A stretch of 64,000 nt of DNA from Flavobacteriales bacterium. Lineage in GTDB: Bacteria; Bacteroidota; Bacteroidia; UBA10329. The position numbers and the translations under genes are program-made. This document shows positions 2,417-47,255 of this stretch, in pieces (position 1 is the stretch's first letter; each line of letters begins with the position of its first letter). The DNA is taken from the NCBI GenBank assembly GCA_021739695.1, contig JAIPBM010000005.1, forward strand, positions 62,001-126,000, given 5' to 3'. The notes beneath the pieces were generated by a model. The model did not search any database. It had not been told where the DNA came from and saw only the letters and a program-made list of their open reading frames with translations.

Positions 2417-2440
2417 TCAGCCATTCTATTACTGAAACCG

Positions 2441-2470: not shown

Positions 2471-2552
2471 TTATGGCTTCCATTTAGAGTGCCATTAAAG
2501 CATGAAGGAGCCAAAACTGTGCTCCCAAGTTGCTTAGTAACTTCAGCAGGAA

Positions 2553-2775
2553 CCTCCGCAGGCTACGAAGCGCCCTTAGCAGCGCTGGCGGCACTGTCCG
2601 CAAAACCTTCCGAGCTGTCCGCAACGTTCTCCGAAATCTCCGAAATCCTCATCGAACCGTCCGCAACGCGAACCGAGTCCTCCGCAATAAGCAACTAATC
2701 GTCCGCAATACATAAAGAGCCGTCCGCAACACGCAGCGAACCGTCCGCAATACATAAAGAGCCGTCCGCAGTAGG
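2553..2775. repeat. Degenerate 21-bp tandem repeat array
   Basis: A core resembling CCGTCCGCAA recurs with an exact 21-base period, with copies starting at about 2553, 2595, 2616, 2637, 2658, 2679, 2700, 2721, 2742 and 2763; the 2574 unit is barely recognisable. The best-conserved stretch (AATACATAAAGAGCCGTCCG) occurs twice near 2707 and 2749. Because 21 is a multiple of three, each frame encodes a heptad repeat. One forward frame gives units like TVRNxxR, and a reverse frame gives ADGSLxI. The forward frame is broken by TAA at 2713 and 2755. There are no spacers, so it is not a CRISPR array. It could be an intergenic minisatellite or a decayed repeat-protein gene. Confidence 0.85.
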
Positions 2776-2986
2776 AAAAGCAGTGTTATTTATGCTGATG
2801 ACCATCCATTTGACATTCCTGACAAATGGAAGCATTCTGCGGAGCACGCCAAGCGTATTGCTCACGCTCACAATCGATGTCAGGAGAACCTAGAAGATGC
2901 TCATTAAACAAACGCTACGCTTCAACTGTAATTTATGGGCGAAAATTGGTTTGCTACAACCACTTCTAACACCCAACTTTGGGCAA
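2776..2986. other. Intergenic stretch after the repeat array; possible gene relic
   Basis: No gene with a usable start is seen here. The forward frame running through the repeat array stays open from 2758 to a TAA at 2905-2907 and gives a hydrophilic, protein-like tail (for example YADDHPFDIPDKWKHSAEH) with no ATG, GTG or TTG. This suggests the C-terminal remnant of a broken gene, but it may be chance. The last 20 bases hold the weak promoter box for the next gene. Confidence 0.3.
2974..2981 (+). promoter_or_regulatory. Probable -7 box directly before the T9SS cargo gene
   Basis: CAACTTTG differs from TAnnTTTG at one base and ends 5 bases before the ATG at 2987. The following GGGC resembles the box at 82-92. 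Transcription from here would give a leaderless or nearly leaderless mRNA. Confidence 0.35.
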
Positions 2987-26007: not shown

Positions 26008-26036
26008 ACAAAACCCTCAATCACGTTTCGGCTTAA

Positions 26037-26777
26037 ATGAAATTACGCGTTTTGCTCATATCAGATATTGGTTTTCAAATAGACCATTTCAGGAAACTGT
26101 TTGCCCAACATCGTTGCTTGGAATTTGCAGAACTTACCGTTCATTGTTCACCGGGAAGTGAAAAGGAATTGAATACAGTGGTACCTGCCGTATCTGCCTT
26201 AAATATCAAAGAACACGCTAATAAAATAGCGCAAAGCTTCGATCTGATAATCTCATATCATTGTCGGCAATTGTTTCCTTCCGAAATTGTCAGAACGGTT
26301 CGATGCATCAATATCCATCCTGGGTTTAATCCGTATAATAAAGGATGGTATCCGGGTGTATTTAGCATTGCCAATGGCCTACCTGCAGGCGCCACTATTC
26401 ACGAGATAGATGAGAAAATTGACAATGGGCCTATCATTGCGCAAAAACGAATAGAAATCCTTCCCGAAGACACTTCTGGAACAGTATATCCAAAAATCAT
26501 TGAAGCAGAATATGAGCTATTGGAAGAATGGTTTATGCCTATGCTAACGGGTAAATACACCACGTTTTTGCCAAAAGAAAAAGGCAATCTCAATTACAAG
26601 AAAGACTTTTACGCACTGCAGGAATTGGACCTCAAAGAGAAACTTACAATGAAAGATTGTATAAACAAGCTACGCGCACTAACCCATCCTCCATTTCAAA
26701 ATGCGTTTTACTTAGATAAAGAAACAGGCGATAGAATTTACATATCTGTAACGTTAAACCGAAAGTCGAGCAGTTGA
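26037..26777 (+). CDS. Nucleotide-sugar N-formyltransferase (WlaRD/VioF-like)
   Basis: A 246-residue formyltransferase-fold protein. The catalytic triad is visible as Asn92 and His94 in INIHPGFNPYNKGWYPG and Asp129 in KIDNGPII. The motif around the His matches sugar N-formyltransferases such as those making dTDP-Qui3NFo or dTDP-Qui4NFo, which use N10-formyltetrahydrofolate, rather than methionyl-tRNA formyltransferase. Together with the upstream aminotransferase it should make an N-formylated 6-deoxy amino sugar for the glycan. It is followed after one base by a NeuD-like acyltransferase gene. Confidence 0.9.
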   Translation: MKLRVLLISDIGFQIDHFRKLFAQHRCLEFAELTVHCSPGSEKELNTVVPAVSALNIKEHANKIAQSFDLIISYHCRQLFPSEIVRTVRCINIHPGFNPYNKGWYPGVFSIANGLPAGATIHEIDEKIDNGPIIAQKRIEILPEDTSGTVYPKIIEAEYELLEEWFMPMLTGKYTTFLPKEKGNLNYKKDFYALQELDLKEKLTMKDCINKLRALTHPPFQNAFYLDKETGDRIYISVTLNRKSSS

Positions 26778-33238: not shown

Positions 33239-34378
33239 ATGAGAATCCTTCAGGTAATTCCAACTCTTGGTCGTGGTGGAGCCGAAAGACTGGTTCTGAA
33301 CATATCCGAGGCGCTTGAGAAATTAGGGCACGAAGTTCTCATCGTCATTTTTAGGCCGGAAATCGGTTATCCGGAACTTGTCGGGAATCTTAACGTTCAA
33401 GTCGTTCCAAGTCGTGTCAGTTATTCGGTATTAGGAAAAGATATTCTCGAAACTGATGAATTCGACAAACTGGTTGCGAAATACAAACCAGATGTGATTC
33501 ACTCTCATTTACTAGAATCTGAATTCGTGAGCAGACGCAATCCCGCGAAAGGAGTGACTTATGTAACGCACTGGCATGGTTGCCATCCACCAACAAATCC
33601 ACGCTCATTTTCGGATTATTTTAAAAAAGATACTTGGTGGAACATCAATGCTATAAGACTGCTACAGCGCGGCTATGCGAAATGCGATAACCAATTCATA
33701 TGTATATCGGAATTCATTGGAAACTACGTTATGCGCGCATTGCACCCAAAGAAGGATCATTTAAAGGTGATCCTAAACGGATGCGATATAAATGAATTCA
33801 TTTATGAAGGATTAGAAAAAGACAACAACACATTCACTCTACTGAGTGTGGGATCATTCCATGCTTACAAGAATCATATCTTCTTGTTGAAAGTGATGAA
33901 ACACCTATCTGATAATGGAGTGAACGATTTAAGACTACAATTCTTGGGCGATGGTGCGGAAAGACAGCAACTTGAAAACTTTGTGAAATCAAACGACTTA
34001 AACAATCAGGTTGAATTTTTGGGATATGTAAAAAACCCAAACAGTTACATGAATCAGGCACATGCATTGGTTCATTCTGCTATTGACGAGCCATTTGGCT
34101 TGATTCTGTTAGAAGCCATGAGCGTTGGACTTCCAATTGTGGCGTTTAATTCTGGAGGAGTTCCAGAAATCGTTGAAAACGGAAAAACCGGATTTCTTAC
34201 TGACGTGAATGACATTGATGGATTTGCAAATTCTATTCTCAAATTAAAATCAGACCCTTCATTGGTTGCCCAATTCAGCAAAGCAGGAAGAGCCTCCGTT
34301 CAGAAATTCAATATGATCGATTACGTTAAGAAAATCGAAGCGCTGTATTTTGAATTAGTCAAAACCAAACCCGTTTAA
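33239..34378 (+). CDS. Glycosyltransferase family 4
   Basis: A 379-residue GT-B enzyme: LQVIPTLGRGGAERLVLNIS at the N-terminus; donor site near LLSVGSFHAYKNHIFLLK and FGLILLEAMSVGLPIVAFNS (the E-x7-E region). It is a retaining transferase using a nucleotide sugar. Its stop is 3 bases before the start of the asparagine synthetase gene, which continues the plus-strand run. Linkage and donor are unknown. Confidence 0.92.
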   Translation: MRILQVIPTLGRGGAERLVLNISEALEKLGHEVLIVIFRPEIGYPELVGNLNVQVVPSRVSYSVLGKDILETDEFDKLVAKYKPDVIHSHLLESEFVSRRNPAKGVTYVTHWHGCHPPTNPRSFSDYFKKDTWWNINAIRLLQRGYAKCDNQFICISEFIGNYVMRALHPKKDHLKVILNGCDINEFIYEGLEKDNNTFTLLSVGSFHAYKNHIFLLKVMKHLSDNGVNDLRLQFLGDGAERQQLENFVKSNDLNNQVEFLGYVKNPNSYMNQAHALVHSAIDEPFGLILLEAMSVGLPIVAFNSGGVPEIVENGKTGFLTDVNDIDGFANSILKLKSDPSLVAQFSKAGRASVQKFNMIDYVKKIEALYFELVKTKPV

Positions 34379-34381
34379 TAA

Positions 34382-36220
34382 ATGTGCGGAATCACAGGAA
34401 TAATGTTGAGAGGAAATGAAGTTGTTCCGAAGGAACTTCTGCAAAAAATGACCGATTCCATGTTCCATCGTGGGCCTGACGAAGACGGCATGCACATTCA
34501 CGCGAATGTTGGCATAGGTATGCGAAGGCTGAGTATTATGGACGTGGCTGGTGGAAGTCAGCCGCTTTATAGCCAAGATGCAACTGTGGCGATGGTCGGT
34601 AACGGGGAAATTTACAATTATCGCCAGCTTCAAAAAGAACTTTCGGATATGCATACATTCCGAACCACAACAGACATGGAAGTCGTGGCTCCGCTGTATC
34701 AGAAATTCGGATTGGATTTTCCGAAACACATGGAAGGCATGTTCGGGCTGGCCATTTTAGACAAATCTCAGCGCAAACTTCATTTGGTGCGAGATCAGAT
34801 GGGTGTAAAACCACTGTTCTACAGCATAGTTGATGATGCCATAGTTTTCTCTTCAGATATCAATTCGATCTTGTCATCTGGAAAAATATCCACGTCCATT
34901 AATGAGAATGCCGTATCGAATTATTTCAACTATCGATTTGGCGCGCTTGGAAATGAATCGTTCTTCAATGGGATCAATGCTCTTTTTCCGGGTGAAATTC
35001 TGACGATTGATACCGAAACATTTGAAATCTCCAGTTCAACTTTTCATGATTCTGTTACGTTTTCAAATGATGACCTACTTAAGTCCAGCGAAGCTGAACT
35101 GATTGATGAACTTGACAAAAGGTTACGTGCTTCTGTAAGCAAGCGACTTATGGCTGATGTGCCTCTTGGCACACTGCTTAGCTCTGGTATTGACTCAACG
35201 CTGCTTACCGCCATCGCAAACGACATCAACAGTAATAAGGTTGATGCATTTACCATCTCATATGCGGAACAAGAATATGACGAAAGTCTAGACGCCAAAG
35301 AATCAGCAGATCATCTGGGAATCAAATGGCATCCGTATTCAGTAAGCAACCAAGAATACACTTCGCTAATTGTTGAGGGAATAAGGAAAAACGAGGCTCC
35401 GATCACTCATCCGAATTCGCTTTCAGTGCATTTGATCACCAAAATTGCTCGCGAAAATGGATACAAGGTTTTATTGAGCGGAGAAGGTGCCGATGAACTT
35501 TTTGCAGGCTACGGACGCACTACCAATCTTTTTCATTTAGAACAGATCAGGAAAAAGTATCCTGATCTGCTACTGAAGTTCTTATCAAGCACGGGATTGA
35601 AGTTTGACAGACGGGAAGCAGCGATTCTAAAGGCTTTATCCAATAAGAATTCGACCAACCTTCTTTCCGAATATTTCAGCGTGGTTGATCAGGATTTCGT
35701 TGAGAAACACGCTATTCCAGAATTTATGCGAAAGCTGGGTAAGCAGTTGGATTTCAATCAGTTGTTTAACCATATTCTTCAAGCAGAACAACGGTCGTAC
35801 TTGCAAGAACTGCTGCTGAGACAGGATAAAATGAGCATGTGGTCGAGTATGGAGGTTCGAGTTCCTTTTGTTGGCGACCCAAATATGGTTTCGTTTGCCA
35901 ATCAGGTACCGATTGAGCTCAAATTGAAGGATGGCGTGAACAAGTATTTGCTCAGAAAAGTAGCCGAGAAATATTTACCTAAGCATATATGTTACCGTAA
36001 AAAGCGTGGTTTTGGATCCCCTATTGGAGAATGGCTCCGTCAGAATAATCAATTGAAAGACCTTGCTTATTCTCTGACATCAAGCGAATACATGGATTCT
36101 AAACAGCGTGCTTATTATGAAAAAACACTTAACGCCCACGTTAATAATAAGACCGATAATTATGAGATCATCTGGAAAATGATGAACTACCTTATTTTCC
36201 GTCAGGAATACAAATTCTGA
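34382..36220 (+). CDS. Glutamine-hydrolysing asparagine synthase homologue, copy 1
   Basis: A 612-residue AsnB-type enzyme. Cys2 of the class II glutaminase is present (MCGITGIM), followed by FHRGPDEDGM and the synthetase domain with the pyrophosphate loop SSGIDSTLLT and the C-terminal KKRGFGSPIGEW. In metabolism it would make asparagine from aspartate; in polysaccharide clusters homologues are thought to amidate sugar uronic acids (as WbpS does for GalNAcA), and the context here suggests that role. The stop TGA at 36218-36220 abuts the stop of the opposing gene at 36221, forming TGATCA. Confidence 0.88.
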   Translation: MCGITGIMLRGNEVVPKELLQKMTDSMFHRGPDEDGMHIHANVGIGMRRLSIMDVAGGSQPLYSQDATVAMVGNGEIYNYRQLQKELSDMHTFRTTTDMEVVAPLYQKFGLDFPKHMEGMFGLAILDKSQRKLHLVRDQMGVKPLFYSIVDDAIVFSSDINSILSSGKISTSINENAVSNYFNYRFGALGNESFFNGINALFPGEILTIDTETFEISSSTFHDSVTFSNDDLLKSSEAELIDELDKRLRASVSKRLMADVPLGTLLSSGIDSTLLTAIANDINSNKVDAFTISYAEQEYDESLDAKESADHLGIKWHPYSVSNQEYTSLIVEGIRKNEAPITHPNSLSVHLITKIARENGYKVLLSGEGADELFAGYGRTTNLFHLEQIRKKYPDLLLKFLSSTGLKFDRREAAILKALSNKNSTNLLSEYFSVVDQDFVEKHAIPEFMRKLGKQLDFNQLFNHILQAEQRSYLQELLLRQDKMSMWSSMEVRVPFVGDPNMVSFANQVPIELKLKDGVNKYLLRKVAEKYLPKHICYRKKRGFGSPIGEWLRQNNQLKDLAYSLTSSEYMDSKQRAYYEKTLNAHVNNKTDNYEIIWKMMNYLIFRQEYKF

Positions 36221-37273
36221 TCAGCGGAGCACTTTTTGTTCCCACTCAAGATCTGCTTGAGTAGGATGATATTCCAGCATCTCCGTATCCGATCTATCCA
36301 ACCGAATGTATGGTACACAATCTTTCTGAATGATTCGGTAGTGCTGTGTATCACTATTCATTTCATCCTTAAGCACATCAGGATATTCTCCAAACAACTC
36401 CTTTTGTACCGGTCGTAACCTGAAACAATCCATTCTTGAAAAACGCCATTTCAAGGCTTTCTTATCATTCGTGCCAAATTCCTTTATGCACCAATCTTCT
36501 TGATACTGCTTAAAGTCTTCCACCTCGGCAGGTCGGTTGTTGTCTGAGTACGAATTGTATAGCTCTCGCCACTCAAAATATTGCCGTCTGTAAATCATAT
36601 TCTCATCAGACTTCAAGCCTTCGCAATGGAAGTAGAAATGCCGATGATCTTTAACAATGGCGTAATAAAAAGGCACTCGAATCACATCAAACTTGCCGTA
36701 TTCAACATACTTGATATCTCTACCAAAACGCAACAAAATCGGCTCACCAGGATCCATTGCTAATGCATGGCGCGTGTGATGGAAATCGCCACGCAAGTTT
36801 GTTCGTGGCAACTGAATGGTCCGTGGTCTATCATCTTTTATCAATTCACGGATCTGCGTCATGCTATTTTCACCCGAAGTGCGGCAGACCATGTCAGCAT
36901 CCCAACGCAGATGCCATTTGTAGCGAGTTTGCCTCAGCCCTGCATTTCGGCAATCTCCCAATAATGCTCCAGGCATCTCAAGTACATCAACCTCAATTCG
37001 GCCTTCATTTTCTTCTTTGAAGTCCTTCATTATCTGAAGCGTTGCATCATCAGAACCATTATCCACAAGCACGACCTGATCGACAACTCTTACCAAACTC
37101 TTTAAACAGAAAGGCAGTATATACTCTTCATTTCTGGCACTGACAACAGCTGTAATACCGTCCTTAAGGATCTCGCCATTCCAGCCTCTATCCCACGACC
37201 GCTCCCATCGGTAATAACCATGATAAAGAATCACAGCCAAGACCTTTCTTACTACAGTTTTGAGTTGATTCAT
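36221..37273 (-). CDS. Glycosyltransferase family 2 (WaaE-like)
   Basis: A 350-residue GT-A family 2 protein: ITAVVSARNEEYILPFCLKS at the N-terminus, LVDNGSDDAT and HLRWDADMVC as the metal-binding site. The latter resembles the WaaE/LgtF-like branch. It is transcribed against the main run, coupled to the CapA-like gene (ATGA at 37270-37273). Its stop abuts the stop of the opposing asparagine synthase homologue with no spacer or terminator. Donor and acceptor are unknown. Confidence 0.85.
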   Translation of the reverse strand: MNQLKTVVRKVLAVILYHGYYRWERSWDRGWNGEILKDGITAVVSARNEEYILPFCLKSLVRVVDQVVLVDNGSDDATLQIMKDFKEENEGRIEVDVLEMPGALLGDCRNAGLRQTRYKWHLRWDADMVCRTSGENSMTQIRELIKDDRPRTIQLPRTNLRGDFHHTRHALAMDPGEPILLRFGRDIKYVEYGKFDVIRVPFYYAIVKDHRHFYFHCEGLKSDENMIYRRQYFEWRELYNSYSDNNRPAEVEDFKQYQEDWCIKEFGTNDKKALKWRFSRMDCFRLRPVQKELFGEYPDVLKDEMNSDTQHYRIIQKDCVPYIRLDRSDTEMLEYHPTQADLEWEQKVLR

Positions 37274-38337
37274 TTGCCTGTGAAAATCTTTAAGAGCTTT
37301 TTCAAAGCCACCTGAGCTACGGTAATATTGTTCAGCTGCGCATGATAATAAATCGGTTCAACTCTGCGCAGTGCCCAATAGTAGACCGGATATCCACCTG
37401 GAACTTTACGCACGATTCGAAACAGAAAATTCCACCACCGGTATGTCGCATTCAGTTCTGTGCGGAAGACAATTGTGTTATCCACATTTGCAATGGCTTC
37501 TACAGAGTGTGCTACGCTGCCATCTTCAAAAAATTCGAGCGCAACTATTCCACTCTTCTTACCACTATTTCGAACGTAGTAAATTCCTCCATCGCAGTGA
37601 ATATCTGCAAAGCAAAAATTACCGAGACTGTAATAAACAGGCTTGCCGTTAATTACTTCGCTCACTTGAAACGTATGAGTATGACAACCGATCAACGCGT
37701 CTGCCCCAGCATCAATAATGGCTTTGGCTTGGGCTAGTTGTTCTTGATGAGGAAAATATCCATAATCAGTTTTGCCGCCCCAATGCATGAGCGCAACTAC
37801 CCTGTCAACATTAGGTCTAAGGTCTTTGATGGCTGAGACAATCTTGTCGAGATCAAAAAAATTCGTGTAAACATCAGCATCCTCAGGCAAGCTGGGGTGC
37901 GTATCCGGATGGACAAAATTGACAAATCCAACCTTCCATCCGCCCACTTCCAGAATAGCAGGTTCCCCTGCCTTTTCTCGATCAACATTTGAACCAACAT
38001 AGGCAATTCCCAATTCGGTCAATTTGTTAACCGTGTTTACGAATCCCTCGTTAAGATTATCATAGAAATGATTGGTGGCCAAGGTTACAAGTCCAAGGTT
38101 CAGATTTTTCAGTTCATTTAACGCCTCTAAAGATGTTCCGATTCGTGGCGTTTTCTTCATGTTCTGTGCTGCCCCAAAAGCCACCACTTCCAAATTACCG
38201 ACTACAAGATCCGCGTCTTTCAAAGTCGATTTCACTTCGTTGAATGGATCTTCGGCCTGTTCAATACGTTTCTGAAAATCATCGTTGAAGGCTACATCGC
38301 CAACAAACTTGATCTGTATTGATTGCCTCCTTTTCAT
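37270..38337 (-). CDS. CapA family protein (poly-gamma-glutamate/capsule synthesis type)
   Basis: A 355-residue protein of the CapA/PGA_cap family with the metallophosphatase-like fold: IKFVGDVAFNDDF at the N-terminus, VVGNLEVVAFG, LVTLATNHFYDN, VVALMHWGGKTDYGY and IGCHTHTFQ as likely metal-binding residues. No signal peptide is seen. Bacillus CapA is needed for poly-gamma-glutamate assembly; related proteins sit in many capsule clusters with unknown biochemistry. ATG 38337 is preferred, with a TTG at 38349 as the alternative. It is the first gene of a two-gene minus-strand operon and diverges from the asparagine-synthase-like gene. Confidence 0.88.
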   Translation of the reverse strand: MKRRQSIQIKFVGDVAFNDDFQKRIEQAEDPFNEVKSTLKDADLVVGNLEVVAFGAAQNMKKTPRIGTSLEALNELKNLNLGLVTLATNHFYDNLNEGFVNTVNKLTELGIAYVGSNVDREKAGEPAILEVGGWKVGFVNFVHPDTHPSLPEDADVYTNFFDLDKIVSAIKDLRPNVDRVVALMHWGGKTDYGYFPHQEQLAQAKAIIDAGADALIGCHTHTFQVSEVINGKPVYYSLGNFCFADIHCDGGIYYVRNSGKKSGIVALEFFEDGSVAHSVEAIANVDNTIVFRTELNATYRWWNFLFRIVRKVPGGYPVYYWALRRVEPIYYHAQLNNITVAQVALKKLLKIFTGK

Positions 38338-38346
38338 GTGCCTGCC

Positions 38347-38354
38347 CAATACTA
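38347..38354 (-). promoter_or_regulatory. Possible -7 box for the capA operon
   Basis: On the reverse strand TAGTATTG differs from TAnnTTTG at one base and ends 9 bases before the ATG at 38337. It supports that ATG over the TTG at 38349, which would overlap the box. Confidence 0.3.
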
Positions 38355-38390
38355 AAGATTAATTGCGAATTTTAGCCACAACGCACGTTC

Positions 38391-40169
38391 ATGTTACTCG
38401 GAACAGTAAAAAATTCAAGTCGATTTTTAGCGGAAAATGAAGATGGTTTCCAATCATTTCCGTTTGGAGAAATGATCCTTGTTGTGAAGGATTTCGGTCG
38501 CGGTTCGCGGGGTCTGTTTGAACAGCATGCTGACCGATTCACCTTTACATCCGAAACACCTTATTTAAGAACAGAATCAGGCTATAGAAAACTTGAAAAG
38601 GCAGAAGAGAGTCTAAGTCAGACCGTTCCGAAAGCAGAGAACAATTTTGCGGCATTTGAAGTGAGCAAAACTGTTTCGGGCTGGTCTGCATTCGCTTCTT
38701 CGGCACGCATTACACGAGCACGAATTTATTTCTTGTTCGTGGATGGTGGAATTCTGTGGTCGGATGATCTGAGAGAGCTTATTCCCTACTCCACTCGAGA
38801 AATGAACCCGATGGGCGCATTTTCTATTCTGAAATATGGAGACGTTCCTGAATACATCACGGTTGTCAAAGGCATTCATTGTATTCCGGTCGGACAAGAG
38901 TTGAAATTCGGCCCAACGGAATTTGATACATGGTTGAAGCAAGGAGAAATTCCACGTTCGGCATTTGAATTTTTCTTCAAGCTAGATTTTCCGATGGACG
39001 GTGGCGACATTCCAAAAACGGAAAAACTGTTGGATGCAGAATTTGAATTCGTGGCAAGTTTGAACCCGATCGTTCCCATTTCGGGCGGTGTTGATAGCAC
39101 GCTGGCGAATTGCCTTATTGATAAGTTCATCGACAAACCATATCCAGCGTATTACATCCAATTTGGGAAAGACGACCCAGAAGTGAAATTCGCGCAAGAA
39201 GCCGCCAAGGCTTCAAAAGCAGAACTGGAAATTGCGCTCTTCACTCCAGAAGACACGATTCCTAGTTTTGAATATCAGAACGAACACGCCATTCAGCCAA
39301 TTGGCGAAAGTTCCACGATTTCCACCGCGTATCATTTTAGAAACCAGAAGCACGCTGGGCATAAGATCATTGATGGAACCTTGGCCGATGGTTGCTACGG
39401 TTCTACTAATTACAATCGGAATGTGATTGGCGATATTCCCGAACGTCCGCAATGGCAACAGCGTTTGAACGAATGGATCGCTGCGCAACTCCAAAGCAGA
39501 AAACTGCCTGGTTTTGAGCGATTTCACCCTCGCGACAGCTATATCAACGATCCATATCTGCAATTCATGGATGTGTATCTCGGTCCATTCGGAAACATGT
39601 GGCTGAAAGATTCGAAGAAGCATTCAGAAAATCTCTTGCCGCTTTGGCAGTACTACTACGATTACTTGAAAGCCGAAAAATCGAATCAGGACGATTGGAT
39701 GAAATACAGCGTTTTCAAAATGGTGAATTACGCTTGCAAGAACAATACGGCAAAGAGTTACGATAACTCGCAGCCTGAAAATTCAGGACTTTATCCATTT
39801 ACCTGGAAATCGATATTAGAAGATCAAGGACACTATTCATGGGCGGAGAAAACCTTGGAAAACACCATTAAATACCCACTCAAAAAAATACTTGACCAGT
39901 ACATGAGCAAAGATTTCATCTACCGAAAAAAGGTAGGATTAAATTCTTGTTTCGAGGATTGGATTCATCTTCCATTTCTCAAAGATCATTTTTCAAAGAT
40001 CATTTCCAGACCTAACGGTGTGGCCGAATATTTCCTCGGAAGCAGAAAGAATTATCTCTTAAACCTGTATTCAAAATCGGAACCAGTACACCCGAATCTC
40101 GCCCGCTTGATCATAAACATGAGCATTTTAGATGCTTGGCTGGAACGACACAACATCTCAATAAAATAG
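38391..40169 (+). CDS. Asparagine-synthase-like protein lacking the glutaminase cysteine
   Basis: A 592-residue relative of asparagine synthetase. The C-terminal half has the ATP pyrophosphate loop PISGGVDSTLANCL (near residue 230) and a C-terminal KKVGLNSCFEDW that corresponds to KxGFxxP in normal AsnB. The N-terminal domain starts MLLGTVKNSSRF, has no Cys2 and keeps only vague Ntn-hydrolase structure, so it should not hydrolyse glutamine. It might use free ammonia or, as in lasso-peptide cyclases, activate an acid for another amine. The neighbours are capA (divergent) and a family 4 glycosyltransferase one base downstream. Confidence 0.82.
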   Translation: MLLGTVKNSSRFLAENEDGFQSFPFGEMILVVKDFGRGSRGLFEQHADRFTFTSETPYLRTESGYRKLEKAEESLSQTVPKAENNFAAFEVSKTVSGWSAFASSARITRARIYFLFVDGGILWSDDLRELIPYSTREMNPMGAFSILKYGDVPEYITVVKGIHCIPVGQELKFGPTEFDTWLKQGEIPRSAFEFFFKLDFPMDGGDIPKTEKLLDAEFEFVASLNPIVPISGGVDSTLANCLIDKFIDKPYPAYYIQFGKDDPEVKFAQEAAKASKAELEIALFTPEDTIPSFEYQNEHAIQPIGESSTISTAYHFRNQKHAGHKIIDGTLADGCYGSTNYNRNVIGDIPERPQWQQRLNEWIAAQLQSRKLPGFERFHPRDSYINDPYLQFMDVYLGPFGNMWLKDSKKHSENLLPLWQYYYDYLKAEKSNQDDWMKYSVFKMVNYACKNNTAKSYDNSQPENSGLYPFTWKSILEDQGHYSWAEKTLENTIKYPLKKILDQYMSKDFIYRKKVGLNSCFEDWIHLPFLKDHFSKIISRPNGVAEYFLGSRKNYLLNLYSKSEPVHPNLARLIINMSILDAWLERHNISIK

Positions 40170-40170
40170 G

Positions 40171-41322
40171 ATGACACGCGTCCTTTATATCGGAGACCCC
40201 AATAGCGTCCATGATTTCAAATGGATAAGTTGGATGAGTTCCAAACCTGAATTTGAGACTTTTCTTATTGCTCAGGAACACGAGATGTCTCTTCTCAGCA
40301 GCAATCAACGCTCATTACTTGGCGCATCCAAAATAACACTCCTTGAACCGATTAAAAGCTATTCTCTTTGGAGGTTTTGGGAGAACCAAGCTTCGCTGAA
40401 AACAATCACTGAAGCGATAGACAAGTATAAGATACATGTGGTGCATCCGCTTTTCGCCACGCCATTTTCGCTGTGGACACGGAATCTTCCCGTGCCATCG
40501 GTCATCACTTCTCGTGGTTCGGATATTCATGTGGTGTTGGCTGGTCTGGGCAAAGGTTCGTTCCTGCATCGCATCCATGGAAAATTATTGTTGCAGCAAT
40601 TCAAATCAGCCTTCGAAAATGCGGCAGCAATTACCTGCACATCGCAAGGACAGTTGAATAAAATCAATTCCGTTTTCGGCACAAACCTGAAAGGCGAGAT
40701 TATCCGAACAGGTGTCAACGTGGATGAGATAAATGCGCTTCAGCCAGAAGTAAATCTGCCCAATAATCTCACCGACAAACGGATCATTTTTCTGCCACGC
40801 TACATTCGTCCGATCTATCAGACCGAATTACAGATTCGAGCGTTAGCTGCCATTCCTGAAACGTTGAAACAACAGCTTGCTATTGTGCTGATTGAAGGTA
40901 AAAAGACTGATTCTGAATACGCTGATTTCATCAAGCTAGAATTAGAAAATTGCGGCATTCAGCATCACACGTTCGAATCCTTGTCTCAGCACGAAATGTG
41001 GTCGATGTTCAAACTGAGTGCGCTTACCATCATGACTCCCAAAACAGATGGAACACCCAATTCAGCATTGGAAGCCATGGCCGCAAGATGCCCGTTGATT
41101 CTGGGTTCATTCAATTATGATGAAGACCTTTTTTCTGAAGAATTCTGTGAACGGATGAAAACAGATTCGACAGAAGAACTCGCACAGCTCATTGAAAATT
41201 CTCTTTCAAACTATCCACTCGAAAAAGTAGAATGTGCGTTTGAAAATGCTTCGAAATTCGGCAACCGTCCAATTGAAATGGAACGACTTCACCAGTTATA
41301 TCTGGCGCTCGCGAAGCGCTAA
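40171..41322 (+). CDS. Glycosyltransferase family 4-like
   Basis: A 383-residue GT-B protein: VLYIGDPNSVHDFKWISWM at the N-terminus, ITSRGSDIHVVLAG, and a C-terminal donor site TPNSALEAMAARCPLILG. It lacks the usual strong GGAE start seen in other copies. It begins one base after the asparagine-synthase-like gene, so the two are coupled, which suggests both act on the same sugar. Its 3' end overlaps the opposing glycosyltransferase gene by 27 bases. Confidence 0.88.
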   Translation: MTRVLYIGDPNSVHDFKWISWMSSKPEFETFLIAQEHEMSLLSSNQRSLLGASKITLLEPIKSYSLWRFWENQASLKTITEAIDKYKIHVVHPLFATPFSLWTRNLPVPSVITSRGSDIHVVLAGLGKGSFLHRIHGKLLLQQFKSAFENAAAITCTSQGQLNKINSVFGTNLKGEIIRTGVNVDEINALQPEVNLPNNLTDKRIIFLPRYIRPIYQTELQIRALAAIPETLKQQLAIVLIEGKKTDSEYADFIKLELENCGIQHHTFESLSQHEMWSMFKLSALTIMTPKTDGTPNSALEAMAARCPLILGSFNYDEDLFSEEFCERMKTDSTEELAQLIENSLSNYPLEKVECAFENASKFGNRPIEMERLHQLYLALAKR

Positions 41323-42573
41323 CACCTTCGCGCAAAAATCAGGATAGTTGATGTTGGCAGAATAGAATGTGCCCCAAATATTCTTGGCCTCCATTCGTAA
41401 TTTATTGTACTCATCAGTACTCATTTGTGCTGTATGAATGATCACCTCAGCCACATCTTCGGGGCTCACTTCTTGGTCCAACAGAAATCCAGTTTTACCA
41501 TTGATCACAATCTCAGAAACACCGCCCACATCGGTTGCGATGGCAGGAATTCCGAACGACATAGCCTCCATAATGCTGACAGGAATTCCATCATACCTAC
41601 TCAAGCTGATAAACAGATCCACCATATGCGTGGAGTAATACTCCAAAACTTTCCAATTTGGAATCCGCCCTAAAAAATGGAATTGGACATTCTCTTTCTT
41701 ACCAAGCAACTTATCGCACAATTCAACTAACGCATTCTTTTCTGGACCATCACCAAAATGTGTCCATTCAATTTCCAATCCATCAATGTGCGAAAGTGCT
41801 TTTGCAATCAGATGCACGCGTTTAATCGGAATAAGATTTGAACAACTAATGAGTTTGAAACGTCTGAAATTCCGTTCGTGCGGCTCCAGTTTATCTACGG
41901 TTCGAATTCCTAATCGGCTTTGATAGATTCTGCCTTCATTGATGATGGAACTGAAGTGGCTCAGCAGGTAATTTCTCCCGTTTTCTGAAATGGCAAAAAT
42001 GGCATCTACGCCATTGAAAATAGACTTTCTGAAGGGCAGATAGTGATACTGACTGCGTTCGAAATAAAGATCCCATCCATGTAATCTACAGAAAGCAGTA
42101 ATGGTCGGATTCTCGTTTTTCAAGTGCGAAATCGCCAAAGCAGCATCATCTGTCCAATAGCTGTAGAGGAAAATCTCCTCATTTTTTGCAAAGTCAACTT
42201 TCGCTAGGATCTGCGCTTGCATTTTCAATGCGCGTATCCGAGAAACCAATAAGGTCTTAATTTTTCCGAGGCTCAAAGAGCCGTGAAAATCGTCTGTAAT
42301 GGTGTTGAGTTCACTTCTCACTTCTGCATCGAACACCAAACGCCAAACTGAAAACAACTTTTGTAGAAAGGTTGGATCCGATTGAAGCTCAATCAGCGAT
42401 ACCGTTTCAGACACTTCAAATTGCTTTGTATTGTCCACTTTACCAGTTGTGCAAATGCTGATCTTGGAAAAATGATGCTTCAAAAAGTCCAATTCCACTT
42501 CGAGAAATGGCTCGCCAAATCCGTAAGGGAAATTGCTGCACACAATAACTAGATGTCGATTCGATGCACTCAC
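41296..42573 (-). CDS. Glycosyltransferase family 4
   Basis: A GT-B transferase of about 425 residues: HLVIVCSNFPYGFGEPFLEVE at the N-terminus (like the WbaZ/AmsK branch that starts FP..GEPFLE), FCRLHGWDLYFERS, LISCSNLIPIKRVHLI, and GIPVSIMEAMSFGIPAIATDVGG. The start is uncertain: GTG 42573 fits the family N-terminus and leaves a divergent promoter region, while the frame stays open to 42693 through sequence that must hold the asnB promoter. It is a single-gene unit facing leftward. Confidence 0.85.
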   Translation of the reverse strand: MSASNRHLVIVCSNFPYGFGEPFLEVELDFLKHHFSKISICTTGKVDNTKQFEVSETVSLIELQSDPTFLQKLFSVWRLVFDAEVRSELNTITDDFHGSLSLGKIKTLLVSRIRALKMQAQILAKVDFAKNEEIFLYSYWTDDAALAISHLKNENPTITAFCRLHGWDLYFERSQYHYLPFRKSIFNGVDAIFAISENGRNYLLSHFSSIINEGRIYQSRLGIRTVDKLEPHERNFRRFKLISCSNLIPIKRVHLIAKALSHIDGLEIEWTHFGDGPEKNALVELCDKLLGKKENVQFHFLGRIPNWKVLEYYSTHMVDLFISLSRYDGIPVSIMEAMSFGIPAIATDVGGVSEIVINGKTGFLLDQEVSPEDVAEVIIHTAQMSTDEYNKLRMEAKNIWGTFYSANINYPDFCAKVLALRERQI

Positions 42574-42635
42574 ATCGCTAATTACTGCATAATTGATGTA
42601 TTCGAGACGGACCAAGCAAATTGAAGTGCATTGCG

Positions 42636-42643
42636 TATCATTG
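42636..42643 (+). promoter_or_regulatory. Possible -7 box for the second asparagine synthase gene
   Basis: TATCATTG differs from TAnnTTTG at one base and ends 19 bases before the ATG at 42663. It lies in the divergent region shared with the GT4 gene. Confidence 0.3.
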
Positions 42644-42662
42644 GAATCAAGAATCTGAACAC

Positions 42663-44519
42663 ATGTGCGGCATAGCAGGCATCTATCATCCAAAAGGCGT
42701 TGATCAAGAAACGGTGAAACTGATGACCGATGCCATTTCGCACCGCGGACCAGATGCCGAAGGTTTTTTTGTGGATGGGAATTTTGGTCTCGGGCACCGG
42801 AGATTGAGCATCATCGACCTCAGCACAGCCGCCAATCAACCCATGCAATCGAGTTGCGGGCGCTATTGGATGGTGTTCAATGGCGAGGTTTACAACTACC
42901 GCGAAATTGCCAAAGACTTGGACGTTCGTCTCAAAACCACTGGCGATTCGGAGGTGATTTTAGAAGCGTTTGCAAAATGGGGACCGCAAATGGTCACCAA
43001 ACTGAACGGAATGTTCACCATTGCCATTTTCGACACGACCGAAAAGAAATTGTTTCTTTTCCGCGATCGGCTTGGCATCAAACCTCTTTTCGTTTATCAA
43101 AACGATGGAGTTCTCGCATTCGCATCTGAACTGAAGGCAATTGTTGCGCTGAAAAACCAATTGAAACTGACGGTTAATCAAGCTGCCATTCCGTACTTCT
43201 TGCATCTCGGCTACATTCCGCAACCATTGTCCATTTACAATGAAGTAGAGAAATTTCCTTCGGGAAGTTGGGCTGTAGCGGATGGCAATTCTTTTCGAGT
43301 TGAAGAATACTGGAATCCTGAAACGAAGATCACATCAAATCTTATTACCGATGAGCGGGAAGCGAAACAGCGGCTTTCGAAATTGCTGCAAGATTCCGTA
43401 AGCAGAAGGTTGGTTTCGGATGTTCCTTTTGGAACTTTCCTAAGTGGTGGAATCGATTCAAGCTTGGTAACCGCGTTGGCGCAGAAAGCATCTTCCGAAA
43501 AACTGAAGACATTCTCCATTGGTTTTGATGATGTCAAGCACGATGAATCGGGTTTTGCACGAAAGGTTTCGGAGCACCTCGGAACAGAACATCACGAATA
43601 TCGGTTAACCGAAAAAGATGCGTTGGAACTGATAACCGAGATCATTCCGCAGTACGATGAGCCATATGCAGATTCATCGGCCATTCCAACCATGTTGGTT
43701 TCAAAGATGGCGCGTCAAGAAGTAACCATGACACTTTCTGGCGATGGTGGTGATGAACTTTTTCATGGTTACGGCATGTATAATTGGGCGCAACGATTGG
43801 CCAATCCAGCAGTTAAAGCATACAGCTGGTCACTAAGCAAAGCGCTTTCCTTTGGTGATGACCGCTACAAGCGTATCGCCAAGGTGCTGGATCATTCGAA
43901 ATCCGATCAGCTTCATTCTCATATCTTCTCGCAAGAACAATACATGTTCTCTGGTTCTGAGATTCAAAACCTTTTGGTTGATAATTCGAAGACAGATTTC
44001 TCCATTCTGGACATGAAAGTCTCGTTGGCAAGAAATCTTTCTCCAGCGGAGTTCCAAGCACTTTTCGATATCGAATTCTATTTAAAAGACGACCTGCTGA
44101 CCAAAGTTGACCGTGCTTCAATGAAATACTCATTAGAAACACGAGTTCCAATTTTGGATCACACCGTGGTTGAATTCGCTTTAAACCTTGACCCGAAGCT
44201 GAAAGTAAAGGATGGTGTTGCCAAGTATCTGCTCAAACAAGTGCTTTATGACCACGTTCCGAAGGAATTGTTCGACCGACCAAAATGGGGCTTCAGCATT
44301 CCTTTAGACAAATGGTTGAAGAATGAACTATCCTATTTGGTGGATGAATACCTGAATGAAAAAGTGGTGACTGAAATCGATGTTGTGAAATGGTCTGAAG
44401 TACGCATTCTGCTCACAAAATGGAATGGCGGACAGAATCATCTCTACAACCGAATTTGGTTATTGATCTTGCTTCATCAATGGTTCACCGATATTCACCT
44501 GGCTGACCGTCAGGTTTAG
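42663..44519 (+). CDS. Glutamine-hydrolysing asparagine synthase homologue, copy 2
   Basis: A 618-residue AsnB-type enzyme with Cys2 (MCGIAGIYHP), ISHRGPDAEGFF, HRRLSIIDLS, the pyrophosphate loop LSGGIDSSLVTAL and the C-terminal PKWGFSIPLDKWL. It has the standard length and full motif set, and the sequence differs clearly from copy 1. ATG 42663 is used because Cys must be residue 2 after Met removal; an upstream in-frame start at 42621 would abolish this. It may be the housekeeping enzyme or amidate a uronic acid in the cluster. The 3' end overlaps the opposing membrane-protein gene by 35 bases. Confidence 0.9.
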   Translation: MCGIAGIYHPKGVDQETVKLMTDAISHRGPDAEGFFVDGNFGLGHRRLSIIDLSTAANQPMQSSCGRYWMVFNGEVYNYREIAKDLDVRLKTTGDSEVILEAFAKWGPQMVTKLNGMFTIAIFDTTEKKLFLFRDRLGIKPLFVYQNDGVLAFASELKAIVALKNQLKLTVNQAAIPYFLHLGYIPQPLSIYNEVEKFPSGSWAVADGNSFRVEEYWNPETKITSNLITDEREAKQRLSKLLQDSVSRRLVSDVPFGTFLSGGIDSSLVTALAQKASSEKLKTFSIGFDDVKHDESGFARKVSEHLGTEHHEYRLTEKDALELITEIIPQYDEPYADSSAIPTMLVSKMARQEVTMTLSGDGGDELFHGYGMYNWAQRLANPAVKAYSWSLSKALSFGDDRYKRIAKVLDHSKSDQLHSHIFSQEQYMFSGSEIQNLLVDNSKTDFSILDMKVSLARNLSPAEFQALFDIEFYLKDDLLTKVDRASMKYSLETRVPILDHTVVEFALNLDPKLKVKDGVAKYLLKQVLYDHVPKELFDRPKWGFSIPLDKWLKNELSYLVDEYLNEKVVTEIDVVKWSEVRILLTKWNGGQNHLYNRIWLLILLHQWFTDIHLADRQV

Positions 44520-45927
44520 GTATAAACGGTGGCCTGATTTCTTTTGACCCGCTAAAATCCTCCACCTTGAGCAGATCGGATTCAGATTCTTCTTCGTCTT
44601 CAAATCCTTTTCGATTCTGATGATAACGTATCATGTATAGGCTGGCAAGAAAGAACGGGAGTGCTGGAATCTTATAACGCACCAACGCTCCAAAATTGGC
44701 CGTTGTAAGCCCCACTGCAAACGAAAAAATAATTGCGAACGTAAATGAAAAAAGCACCATAGGCTTACCAAAGACATAACGCGCAAAAGCAAGCGGGCCA
44801 ATCTTGAATAGCATATACAGTAGAAATAACATTAGAATCGTGTTTTCTAATGCAGAAATGAACATCACCGGATTGCGCACATCCAAAAATGTAGGACGAA
44901 ATAGGCCAGCAAAAATTGCAACAGGTGCTTTTGTCAACATGCCTCCAATCGAGGGGTCAATCGTTCCGATGTCAAAAGAGTTGCCCTGATACGCCTCTCT
45001 TTGAAGGTCTTCTTGTGTTGCGATAGCTTTATCAACGATGGTATCAACAGAACCATAAGCACCCAAGCTTTCTGAGGCACTTGAAAATATCAAAGTTGCC
45101 CCTACAACTCCAAGCATAAGTATAATAGGCGCTGCCATGACTCTGACTATTTGATTCTGGACTTTTTGAATCCTGTTGAAAACAAGCCACAAAGACAAAC
45201 CAGGAAGAAGTGCAACAAAAATGTAAGGTTTCATTGCAATCATAACATACGCTGCAAAAGCCATATAAAAAAGATTCCAAAATACTTTCCTTTTCTTAAA
45301 CAACAAACCATAAACGGATGACGTCATCCAGCATAACGCAGTAAAAGTGTAGGTATCTTTCATCACACCAGACCCCCAAAACACAACTGATGGAATAAAA
45401 AGAAAGGCAATGGCCAACTCTTTTCTTAGACTAGGGTATTCTTCCAAAAACACCAAATACAATCTCCAAACACCGCCAAAAGAGAACCACGATACTAGTA
45501 TGGTGCAGCCCAAAAAACTATCTACGGACAAGGTTGCAAACGGGCTACTTATTCGAGTAACTGTATACGCTTGATGATCTCGAAGATAGTAATAAGGAAT
45601 ATTATCCCGTAAATCAAAACAATACAACCACTTATGACTAGTGTCACCAAAAAGAATCCTTAGGTAGCAGACCGGCTCTGAAGTAATTAAAGTAGATAGT
45701 ATTTTAGCATCCAGCCAATATGCTGTAGTATCTCCTCCTCCGTAATAAAACATATAGATGAAAGCAAACAACAGTCCTCCATATACCTTAGCCAATAGTC
45801 CCGGACGATAATACTTGTAGGCAGGATTTTCTTCAATATTGTTCCTCGTTCCTCGATTTGCGAAATAATGCACCAGAAATAAGTAGACCGGTACCCAAAT
45901 AAAATCCCAAATTCCGATGTACTTCAT
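44485..45927 (-). CDS. Polytopic membrane protein, possible glycan polymerase or transporter
   Basis: A 480-residue protein with about ten hydrophobic segments, starting in a helix (MKYIGIWDFIWVPVYLFLVH). A large loop near residues 90-140 has GGGDTTAYW and TRISSPFATLS. An acidic cytoplasmic tail follows the last helix (DEEESESDL ... PFIPKPDGQPGEYR). The shape, in a polysaccharide cluster, resembles Wzy-type polymerases, but sequence gives no firm match, and an ABC-exported glycan would not require one. It is monocistronic, has a good -7 box, and diverges from a glycosyltransferase gene. Confidence 0.75.
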   Translation of the reverse strand: MKYIGIWDFIWVPVYLFLVHYFANRGTRNNIEENPAYKYYRPGLLAKVYGGLLFAFIYMFYYGGGDTTAYWLDAKILSTLITSEPVCYLRILFGDTSHKWLYCFDLRDNIPYYYLRDHQAYTVTRISSPFATLSVDSFLGCTILVSWFSFGGVWRLYLVFLEEYPSLRKELAIAFLFIPSVVFWGSGVMKDTYTFTALCWMTSSVYGLLFKKRKVFWNLFYMAFAAYVMIAMKPYIFVALLPGLSLWLVFNRIQKVQNQIVRVMAAPIILMLGVVGATLIFSSASESLGAYGSVDTIVDKAIATQEDLQREAYQGNSFDIGTIDPSIGGMLTKAPVAIFAGLFRPTFLDVRNPVMFISALENTILMLFLLYMLFKIGPLAFARYVFGKPMVLFSFTFAIIFSFAVGLTTANFGALVRYKIPALPFFLASLYMIRYHQNRKGFEDEEESESDLLKVEDFSGSKEIRPPFIPKPDGQPGEYR

Positions 45928-45961
45928 CTGTTTCGAAAAATTGAATTTAGGTTCATGGCTT

Positions 45962-45969
45962 CAAATTTA
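45962..45969 (-). promoter_or_regulatory. -7 box for the membrane protein gene
   Basis: On the reverse strand TAAATTTG matches TAnnTTTG exactly, 34 bases before the ATG at 45927. The opposing GT4 promoter lies about 25 bases away. Confidence 0.45.
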
Positions 45970-45991
45970 CTCAAGGTGTCGGGAGATGGGC

Positions 45992-45999
45992 TAATTTCG
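45992..45999 (+). promoter_or_regulatory. Possible -7 box directly before a GT4 gene
   Basis: TAATTTCG differs from TAnnTTTG at one base and ends 5 bases before the ATG at 46005, so a transcript would be leaderless or nearly so. Confidence 0.35.
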
Positions 46000-46004
46000 C
46001 TCAA

Positions 46005-47255
46005 ATGAATGTGCTGTATTTGAGTTATGATGGTTTGACGGATGGTTTAGGGCGTTCTCAAGTGCTGCCGTACATTTTCGGACTTGAAAAATCAGGACAT
46101 CACTTCTCTATCATCAGTTTCGAAAAAAAAGAACCATTCAAACGTGATGGAGCAAATATTCAAAGACTAGTTGACGATGCTGGCGTTCGTTGGATTCCAC
46201 TGGCTTATACTTCTTCTCCGCCAATTGTTTCTACCGTATATGATGTTTACCAACTGACCAAAACGGTTGAGAAAATCTACAGCGAAAATCCGTTCGATAT
46301 CATTCATTGCAGAAGCTACATTACTTCGTTGATTGGCTTAAGAATGAAGCAGAAATACGGAGTGAAATTCGTGTTTGACATGCGCGCTTTCTATGCCGAT
46401 GAACGCGTTGATGGAGGACTTTGGAACTTGAAAAACCCCATCTTCAAGACGGTTTACGATTTTTTCAAACGAAAGGAAATCGCCTTTCTCAGCAATGCTG
46501 ATTATTCCATCAGCCTGACAGAAAAAGGAAAAGAGATCATTCATTCGTGGAATACAATTCCTCATCAGCCAGTGCCAGTTCAGGTCATTCCATGCTGTGC
46601 CGACCTGGATCATTTTCATCCTTCGAAAATTGATGAAGCACTTCAATCTCAATTGAAATTGAAATTTGATTTGAAAAATGACGATTTCGTAATCACGTAT
46701 TTAGGTTCAATTGGCACTTGGTATCTGCTAGACGAAATGCTGGATTTTTTCAAGGTTTTAAATGACAAAAGACCTACCGCCAAATTTCTTTTCATCACTA
46801 CCGACAGTCCAGATTCGATTCTTCCCAAGGCTGAATCAAAAGGAATTCCAGTTGACCGAATTCTTATTTCACCCGCAAAACGAGAAGAAGTTCCAACGTT
46901 TCTGAGTTTGGCCAATGCAGCCATCTTTTTTATTCAACCTGTATTTTCAAAGTCAGGCTCTTCTCCTACCAAACATGGAGAAATGCTTGGCATGGGATTG
47001 CCAGTGATCGCAAATTCAGGAGTTGGCGATGTAGACCGAATTATTGAAGACACAAATAGCGGAATCCTCGTTCGGGAATTTACCGATGAGGCTTACGAGA
47101 AAGCCATTGAACAGATTGATGACCTCTTGAAAATTCCAGTTTCTATGCTTCAAGATGCTGCGCAGAAATATTACTCGTTGGAAGAAGGTGTGAAAAAGTA
47201 CAACTTCGTTTACGAGTCCATTTCCAGTTCTAATGATGATACTTCTCGTTCTTGA
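46005..47255 (+). CDS. Glycosyltransferase family 4
   Basis: A 416-residue GT-B transferase: VLYLSYDGLTDGLGRSQVL at the N-terminus, IIHCRSYITSLIGLRMKQKYG, FDMRAFYADERVDGG, and donor region FVITYLGSIGTWYLLDEML with SSPTKHGEMLGMGLPVIAN. It is the last gene of the polysaccharide region and diverges from a membrane-protein gene. The final 26 bases overlap rlmH on the other strand. Donor and linkage are unknown. Confidence 0.92.
   Translation: MNVLYLSYDGLTDGLGRSQVLPYIFGLEKSGHHFSIISFEKKEPFKRDGANIQRLVDDAGVRWIPLAYTSSPPIVSTVYDVYQLTKTVEKIYSENPFDIIHCRSYITSLIGLRMKQKYGVKFVFDMRAFYADERVDGGLWNLKNPIFKTVYDFFKRKEIAFLSNADYSISLTEKGKEIIHSWNTIPHQPVPVQVIPCCADLDHFHPSKIDEALQSQLKLKFDLKNDDFVITYLGSIGTWYLLDEMLDFFKVLNDKRPTAKFLFITTDSPDSILPKAESKGIPVDRILISPAKREEVPTFLSLANAAIFFIQPVFSKSGSSPTKHGEMLGMGLPVIANSGVGDVDRIIEDTNSGILVREFTDEAYEKAIEQIDDLLKIPVSMLQDAAQKYYSLEEGVKKYNFVYESISSSNDDTSRS

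Follow-up and report, generated by a model that had tools for sequence, protein, structure and literature searches.

An asparagine-synthase homologue without glutaminase residues, encoded beside capA in uncultured Bacteroidota, as a candidate glycan amide synthetase

What might an enzyme of the asparagine synthetase family couple once it can no longer draw ammonia from glutamine? The question is raised by a gene on contig JAIPBM010000005.1 of a Flavobacteriales bacterium (Bacteroidota; assembly GCA_021739695.1), of which we analyzed positions 62,001 to 126,000 of the forward strand; this 64,000-nt stretch is called the window, and all coordinates refer to it unless stated otherwise. The gene encodes an asparagine-synthase-family protein (hereafter the synthetase) and lies head-to-head with a gene for a CapA-type protein. 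We give about an even chance to the proposal that the synthetase is an ATP-dependent amide synthetase of the AsnB fold, which would link a carboxylate of a glycan with some amine that is not ammonia drawn from glutamine, CapA acting on the same substrate. Judged from its sequence, amide synthesis as such is likely; a glycan carboxylate and a non-ammonia amine as its substrates stand at roughly even odds, and CapA as a metal-dependent finishing enzyme is a weak suggestion. Amide decorations of surface glycans are known chemically, and to our knowledge few of their ligases are.

A first-pass annotation, made by a model from the letters and their open reading frames, had described an intact synthetase loop, a lost Cys2 together with its surroundings, and two complete AsnB-type enzymes elsewhere in the cluster. 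The open reading frame encodes 592 amino acids from its ATG, in an open frame of 597 codons. Its product starts Met-Leu-Leu, and just five in-frame codons, none of them for Cys, lie between this ATG and the preceding stop, which leaves no room for a catalytic Cys concealed by a wrongly chosen start. Asn_synthase (PF00733) was the sole Pfam match (residues 230–585, 74.5 bits, E = 1.6e-20, cut-off 21); GATase_6 and GATase_7 were not matched in Pfam, whereas both AsnBs of the window (starting at 34382 and 42663) match these two as well as Asn_synthase and are indeed complete. Column by column, we compared the synthetase with 32 ordinary AsnBs, 2 from the window and 30 from viral contigs. Of 30 N-terminal columns with 90% or higher invariance in these, 24 are lost, including Cys2, Arg28-Gly29-Pro30-Asp31, Gln59-Pro60, Asn73-Gly74, Tyr77-Asn78, Asp95 and Glu97, and six are kept (Met1, Gly6, Leu48, Glu75, Gly116 and Arg134; numbering of the AsnB at 42663). 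The Glu97 column still holds Glu in one of the five family members of the alignment that contains the AsnBs, and position 2 is not Cys, Ser or Thr in any of the nine rows of the family alignment. Up to about residue 80 the sequence is rewritten; residues ~88–175 can still be aligned with the latter half of the glutaminase domain of AsnB. Cys2 is gone as annotated; given this alignment and an N-terminus modelled as beta-rich, the loss of its surroundings had been put slightly too strongly. Profile–profile alignment of the family with 16 AsnBs (hhalign) covered residues 85–586 (probability 99.3, E = 8.5e-21). The synthetase itself scored below the cut-offs of the models for glutamine-hydrolysing asparagine synthetase (TIGR01536; 32.5 bits against 267.1) and for WbpS-type proteins (TIGR03108; 40 bits against 816.9), and it matched neither the lasso cyclase model NF033535 nor any other lasso or RiPP (ribosomally synthesized and post-translationally modified peptide) model of NCBIfam at E = 0.1.

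The nucleotide site, by comparison, has been retained. In the pyrophosphate loop, which is intact as first described (SGGVDS, residues 231–236), S231, G233, D235 and S236 are identical to all 32 AsnBs and G232 to 30 of them. The stretch DGTLADGCYG is identical in all eight family sequences that reach it (of nine), including that of the distant genome G640; its D333, the equivalent of AsnB D351, is the residue that we take to bind Mg. Besides Lys514, K494 (AsnB K429) also falls on a near-invariant AsnB column. E. coli AsnB residue numbers come from a manual count along 1ct9 in the alignment. Overall, 13 of 23 near-invariant columns are kept in the synthetase half, against the 6 of 30 in the glutaminase half, and orthologues with as little as 39% identity still conserve the ATP-site residues. 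Columns around the acceptor pocket have been altered: at those of E348, E352, Y357 and R400 the synthetase has T330, G334, T339 and L467. Three of these columns (E352, Y357 and R400) are invariant in the 32 AsnBs, and the E348 position is Asp or Glu in 24; presumably some of the four residues bind aspartate in AsnB.

Could such a site still use ammonia? The best-known family members without glutaminase activity (beta-lactam synthetase, carbapenam synthetase and the lasso cyclases) use other amines, which counts against an ammonia-dependent synthetase of a uronamide or Asn-like product that would take up free NH3, or NH3 from the complete AsnB next door. The replaced E352, Y357 and R400 columns likewise suggest that the pocket differs, the cluster already has a glutamine-dependent amidotransferase in the complete AsnB at 42663, and neither of the window's two AsnBs was seen at the related loci L031 and L036 (the L031 contig ends ~1 kb past its glycosyltransferase gene, and these two genomes were not searched for AsnB). 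In favor of ammonia, the ATP-site residues are intact, canonical asparagine synthetases and PesC accept it instead of glutamine (PMC13060819; papers are cited by PubMed Central number), and the cluster holds a WbpS-like AsnB, WbpS (PGN_1234) being required for a glucuronamide in Porphyromonas gingivalis (PMC7468200). On balance, we consider an ammonia-dependent enzyme unlikely.

A structure model of the synthetase agrees with an AsnB-type architecture (predicted local distance difference test, pLDDT, 78.1; predicted template-modelling score, pTM, 0.81). Only residues 339–400 fell below a pLDDT of 50, and residues 1–200 were modelled as a beta-rich domain with a mean pLDDT of 74–94 per block of ten residues. 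The best structural match was the hydroxyamidotransferase TsnB9 (7ylz; Z 26.7, 3.2 Å over 497 residues), which differs from the synthetase in being a complete AsnB-type chain starting Met-Cys-Gly and shares 10% identity with it. Other whole-chain matches were E. coli AsnB (Z 23.1), beta-lactam synthetase (1jgt; 22.8), human asparagine synthetase (22.1) and the carbapenam synthetase CarA (1q15; 21.4), and chains of these five enzymes filled the first 23 rows of a Foldseek search (template-modelling scores, by query length, 0.47–0.66). Since the modelling alignment consisted mostly of ordinary AsnBs (five family members, the two window AsnBs and 30 from viral contigs), the fold match is partly built in, and we regard the superposition as support, not proof. 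A comparison with beta-lactam synthetase had been suggested by the first-pass annotation: with AsnBs in the alignment helping, the model superposes on it along the chain, and the matches to both lactam-forming enzymes cover residues 1–590. These two share the two-domain fold, the pyrophosphate loop and an N-terminal fold kept without its nucleophile, at 10–13% identity in the structural alignments. They have lost the catalytic Cys and form an amide at the expense of ATP without glutamine; their reaction closes an intramolecular lactam, and their genes sit in antibiotic clusters. Their Tyr-Glu dyad (named in a title among the references of PMC13060819) has no clear counterpart in the synthetase, T330 and T339 standing at the E348 and Y357 columns and residues 339–400 being the poorly modelled part. 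No chain of the asparagine-synthetase family came up when PDB sequences were searched with the single protein or the family profile; a weak GMP synthase match (E = 0.66) and chance matches were all that appeared, and the link to AsnB came from the profile–profile alignment and the structure comparison. LarE, GMP synthetase and NAD synthetase can likewise be superposed on the synthetase half (Z about 10–12), as would suit another pyrophosphate-loop chemistry, for example transfer of sulfur or another group with no amide synthesis. TsnB9, AsnB and beta-lactam synthetase match far better and across both domains (Z 21–27 over 408–497 residues), the C-terminal Lys motif is of the AsnB type, and we regard a chemistry of that other kind as extremely improbable.

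Is the gene a one-off decayed copy? We found the synthetase in seven of the nine genomes of its own order (one genus, own genome included) and in two genomes of other families, G053 (52% identity) and G640 (39%). The comparison set had no other genome from the family and order of G053, and G640 is the one carrier among ten genomes of its family and order. A sample of the phylum yielded the synthetase in 1 of 395 genomes, its own (E = 1e-20), and two samples of the class (E = 1e-10) in 9 of 395 and 8 of 394, the latter being the same nine less its own; in these large samples scoring was limited to three candidates per genome, so distant members may be missed. In a search of 99 genomes, 20 matched and eight orthologues were recovered; the remaining 13 matches, spread over 12 genomes (E = 4e-9 to 8e-4), were not counted, being ordinary AsnBs that start MCG, VCG or MCR, or MCG shortly downstream. 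A search of genome contigs, restricted to close relatives, gave four relatives from 15 candidate stretches, copies of the loci of G001, G002, G003 and G006. Plasmids, phages and viral contigs contained no relative (none among 70 pattern matches in the viral contigs), and we rejected a phage or plasmid origin on this ground. One contig labelled Chryseobacterium gleum (CAMCFW010000042.1, L023) carries a locus syntenic with that of the uncultured genus and a synthetase with 86% identity; the contig may be mislabelled.

Against its counterparts at loci L026–L028, the synthetase showed 86–88% identity and ratios of nonsynonymous to synonymous substitution rates (dN/dS) of 0.020–0.041, at dS values of 2.3–4.6, near saturation; ratios are quoted only for pairs with estimable dS, and more distant pairs gave none. 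For the same pairs, identities were 65–68% for the downstream glycosyltransferase and, with L026 and L027, 52–53% for CapA (L028 was omitted, its CapA being cut by a contig end), 75–82% for the AsnB at 42663 and 71–72% for the protein at 44485. The synthetase, by these measures, is under purifying selection. Decay, a frameshift or a truncated start were rejected given the five upstream codons, the absence of internal stops in the orthologues (contig ends truncate those of G001 and G002) and the low dN/dS. Instead of a decayed one-off, the comparisons establish a rare but conserved family without glutaminase residues, present in some uncultured Bacteroidota and spanning three lineages.

The neighborhood is conserved as well. 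We compared nine loci, namely the window, L026–L032 and L036 (genome G640). CapA adjoins the synthetase and the next glycosyltransferase gene starts one base past its stop (40169/40171), as first annotated; the gap to capA measures 41 bp if counted from the capA TTG and 53 bp if the first capA ATG (38337) is taken. The head-to-head arrangement recurs in eight of the nine loci, one gene of glycosyltransferase family 4 (GT4) intervening in L031, and the GT4 gene at 40171 is next in six of the seven loci that reach that side, so that the trio of CapA, synthetase and GT4 singled out by the annotation is seen across loci. The linkage of the synthetase to CapA and glycosyltransferases extends over three lineages. 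A CapA homologue above 200 bits was found in all nine genomes with the synthetase versus none of eight tested without it, a chosen set of two members of the genus (G005 and G007) and six of the family of G640; the PGA_cap proteins of G005 and G007 are all more distant (57 and 49 bits). The window's CapA (62%), the glycosyltransferase at 36221 (80%), the AsnB at 34382 (79%) and the GT4 at 46005 (80%) are all closest to L029, whereas its synthetase is closest to L026–L028 (86–88%, versus 70–71% to L029). This mosaic suggests that parts of the cluster (33239–47255) were swapped, one boundary falling at, or close to, the capA–synthetase gap, and hence that the two proteins tolerate new partners.

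Counted from the ATG at 38337, the CapA residues D14, E50, N89, H90, D93, H185, H219 and H221 are of the metal-binding or catalytic type of the calcineurin fold; seven of them are invariant in an alignment of eight rows, and D93 is present in seven rows and unreadable in L036. Read from this ATG, the catalytic domain begins almost at once, and inspection by eye showed neither a signal peptide nor an N-terminal anchor, which makes a cytosolic enzyme more likely; in this the protein differs from the CapA of poly-gamma-glutamate synthesis, with which it shares PF09587. The longest capA open reading frames of L030 and L032 add a short hydrophobic stretch, which may reflect a wrong start. The earlier suggestion that CapA helps to assemble or attach the glycan is weakened by this probable cytosolic location. 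No CapB-type Mur ligase, for which the CapBC of poly-gamma-glutamate synthesis served as comparison, was found among the 25 window proteins scanned with Pfam, six open reading frames of the cluster not being scanned.

A profile search of solved structures with CapA (E up to 1) returned only 8gq9, 8gqa, 8itg, 8gqb and 8ith, three distinct sequences with a best E of 4.7e-14. These are named capsule proteins; from residue positions and the Asn at 295 in 8ith, we identify them as MslH and variants. That MslH and its variants, which share PF09587, are the only solved relatives would suit a peptide or amino-acid substrate: the synthetase would couple an amino acid to an amino sugar or make a small peptide, and CapA, as an MslH-type epimerase, would set a D configuration. 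The lasso cyclases, which form an amide with a non-ammonia amine, are AsnB relatives (PMC13060819), and seryl or glycyl groups can be borne by linking sugars of Bacteroidota (PMC7468200). Most of the CapA residues also match by motif those named for the phosphodiesterase YmdB (PMC10406935), whose Asn40 has no counterpart in CapA (V51 by motif), as in MslH. Set against an epimerase of this type, CapA reaches 49.6 bits with the MslH model NF038314, for which the cut-off is 700; the MslH Ca ligands E44, N87 and H259 have counterparts in CapA, but H261 aligns to Gly187, and H219 of CapA creates an H-x-H that MslH does not have. The lasso cyclases also differ in acting on a peptide: except for the MslH-type model with CapA, no lasso model matched the scanned proteins, the synthetase matched no lasso or RiPP model at the threshold given above, and small precursor genes were not searched for. 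We think a peptide or amino-acid substrate of this kind distinctly unlikely. As to CapA itself, it may be a two-metal phosphoesterase, which the H-x-H favors and the missing Asn40 counterpart speaks against, or an epimerase.

Sugar-nucleotide genes speak for the proposed glycan amide. Upstream of the window, on the same contig, a Wbp-like set of sugar-nucleotide genes (C5:43.8–51.2 kb; L058 815-8170) resembles WbpA, B, D, E and Ugd in order and first residues, the names being given by inspection. Matches to uridine diphosphate (UDP)-sugar dehydrogenase (PF03721) lie at C5:45.6 and 49.5 kb; such matches occur in all 11 genomes searched, with and without the synthetase, and the enzyme was rejected as a discriminator, being also present in both genus members that lack the synthetase. 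A DesI-like aminotransferase at 24913 (265.9 bits, below the cut-off of 650) is followed by a formyltransferase for deoxythymidine diphosphate (dTDP)-4-amino-4,6-dideoxyglucose at 26037 (256.6 bits, above the cut-off of 238; the two genes span 24913–26777), which makes it likely that the glycan contains a formamido sugar. At the L036 locus, a polysaccharide deacetylase gene (2426-3442) and a GNAT-type gene (4400-5374) are reminiscent of VimE and VimA of linking-sugar synthesis.

In the mechanism that we propose, the synthetase would adenylate a carboxylate, most likely that of a uronic acid, or another carboxylate of the glycan precursor. The attacking amine would come from, for example, an amino acid, an amino alcohol or an amino sugar, and not as ammonia from glutamine; the product, an amide-decorated glycan unit, would be used or extended by the adjacent GT4. 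CapA, a putative soluble metallo-enzyme of the calcineurin fold, would process the same substrate, for instance by dephosphorylating a phosphorylated amine after coupling, like the Campylobacter phosphatase Cj1435, or alternatively by changing stereochemistry, as its relative MslH does. Precedents exist in other bacteria. In Campylobacter jejuni, the glucuronate of the capsule receives serinol through a glycosyltransferase, an ATP-dependent ligase and a phosphatase; the C-terminal amide ligase of Cj1438 and the phosphatase Cj1435 would thus do the same job with a glycosyltransferase alongside, but that ligase makes ADP and Cj1435 is of the haloacid dehalogenase type (PMC11800397), and we claim no homology to the pair described here. 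The linking sugar of P. gingivalis carries serine, and WbpS is likewise an AsnB-family protein of a Bacteroidota surface-glycan pathway (PMC7468200); the synthetase differs from it in its low TIGR03108 score and in lacking a glutaminase, the AsnB at 42663 being closer (510.8 bits). By analogy, the two precedents indicate that such products exist, not that the gene in the window makes one. A more specific version, in which a cytosolic CapA finishes the group after a beta-lactam-synthetase-like, AsnB-derived enzyme has coupled a surface-glycan uronate to a phosphorylated or amino-acid amine, as a glycan-decorating module of Bacteroidota, is tentative and somewhat improbable.

Several observations weigh against the proposal. 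In the synthetase half, 10 of the 23 near-invariant columns have changed too. A Tyr-Asp dyad is reported to be conserved in several family members (PMC13060819), and no Tyr of the synthetase aligns with it: T339 stands at the Y357 column, with Y336 and Y341 nearby, at the edge of the stretch modelled at a pLDDT below 50. Either this counts against the standard mechanism or the alignment is loose in that stretch. The model itself depends on the 32 AsnBs; with seven sequences, two of them AsnBs, pLDDT was only 43 and the model was discarded. The genus members G005 and G007 have UDP-sugar dehydrogenases just as the carriers do, and in P. gingivalis the addition of the amino acid is ascribed, presumably, to VimA and not to an AsnB-fold enzyme (PMC7468200). 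The GT4 gene is not adjacent in L036, where its homologue lies 6 kb away. Compared with L029, the synthetase (70%) is less conserved than its neighbors at 34382, 36221 and 46005 (79–80%), and with different nearest relatives, CapA and the synthetase need not be a tightly co-evolved pair. Finally, an amide with another amine, as the first-pass annotation had put forward, would fit the lost glutaminase and the changed columns of the acceptor pocket, and free ammonia could still be the nucleophile.

The lost glutaminase and the 10 changed columns of the synthetase half, together with a divergence at which sequence searches find no family chain in the PDB, could also be expected of a catalytically silent scaffold or sensor that regulates or docks glycosyltransferases. 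Yet the residues retained, even in the 39% orthologue, are those of the nucleotide site, and the identity to L026–L028 exceeds that of all four neighbors compared, which is the opposite of a decaying active site; we hold a pseudoenzyme to be very unlikely. If the proposed glycan amide synthetase is borne out, it would be an AsnB-fold enzyme without a glutaminase that acts on a glycan, and the asparagine-synthetase fold, which had already given rise to beta-lactam synthesis, would have been recruited again to ligate amides on glycans. For CapA proteins, many of which have no clear catalytic function, it would supply a partner and a substrate open to testing, as well as a concrete catalytic role in a setting other than poly-gamma-glutamate or lasso peptides. 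As a small, conserved and apparently soluble pair, the two proteins could be assayed directly. An AsnB-like glycan ligase without glutaminase and paired with CapA was not described among the matches listed from titles and abstract starts of open-licence PubMed Central papers, in searches of which some had other aims, which is weak evidence of absence.

Coordinates of the synthetase, its parts and the surrounding cluster genes in the window.
Feature	Position	Strand	Basis
Asparagine-synthase-family protein, proposed amide synthetase	38391..40169	+	PF00733, 74.5 bits; orthologues; model and fold match
Degenerate N-terminal-nucleophile (glutaminase-type) domain, residues 1–200, Cys2 absent, fold predicted to be retained	38391..38990	+	Lost AsnB columns; hhalign; model
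Pyrophosphate loop SGGVDS, residues 231–236 (E. coli AsnB S234–S239)	39081..39098	+	AsnB column comparison
DGTLADGCYG, residues 328–337	39372..39401	+	D333 (AsnB D351) kept; E348/G349/E352 replaced by T/L/G
Lys514 of YRKKVGLN (AsnB Lys449)	39930..39932	+	Lys in 32 of 32 AsnBs; conserved in all 7 family sequences reaching it (of 9)
CapA / PGA_cap protein, divergent partner	37270..38349	-	PF09587, 184.4 bits, cut-off 27
GT4-type glycosyltransferase	40171..41322	+	PF00534, 46.0 bits; one base downstream of the synthetase
Glycosyltransferase family 2 (GT2)-type protein behind capA	36221..37273	-	PF00535, 50.6 bits
Complete AsnB-type amidotransferase, possible WbpS-like uronamide maker	42663..44519	+	GATase_6, GATase_7 and Asn_synthase
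Complete AsnB-type amidotransferase, outside the conserved unit	34382..36220	+	Pfam and NCBIfam; in 2 of 6 genus loci (window and L029)
480-aa protein, hydrophobic by eye, possible membrane polymerase	44485..45927	-	No Pfam or NCBIfam match
GT4-type glycosyltransferase	46005..47255	+	47% homologue in L036 (G640)

Among the other genes of the cluster, the GT2 gene at 36221 is present in all six genus loci that cover its position and was not seen in L031 or L036. The AsnB at 42663 occurs in all five genus loci covering it; its top NCBIfam score was with TIGR03108, below the cut-off of 816.9, and it exceeded that of TIGR01536 (474.4 bits against 267.1). The protein at 44485, possibly a polymerase, accompanies the synthetase in the genus and in G640 (37% identity) and was not seen on the short contig of L031. 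Outside these loci, genome G033 encodes an AsnB-type protein of 1022 amino acids (L014 157-3225), ~400 residues above the usual length and a possible fusion.

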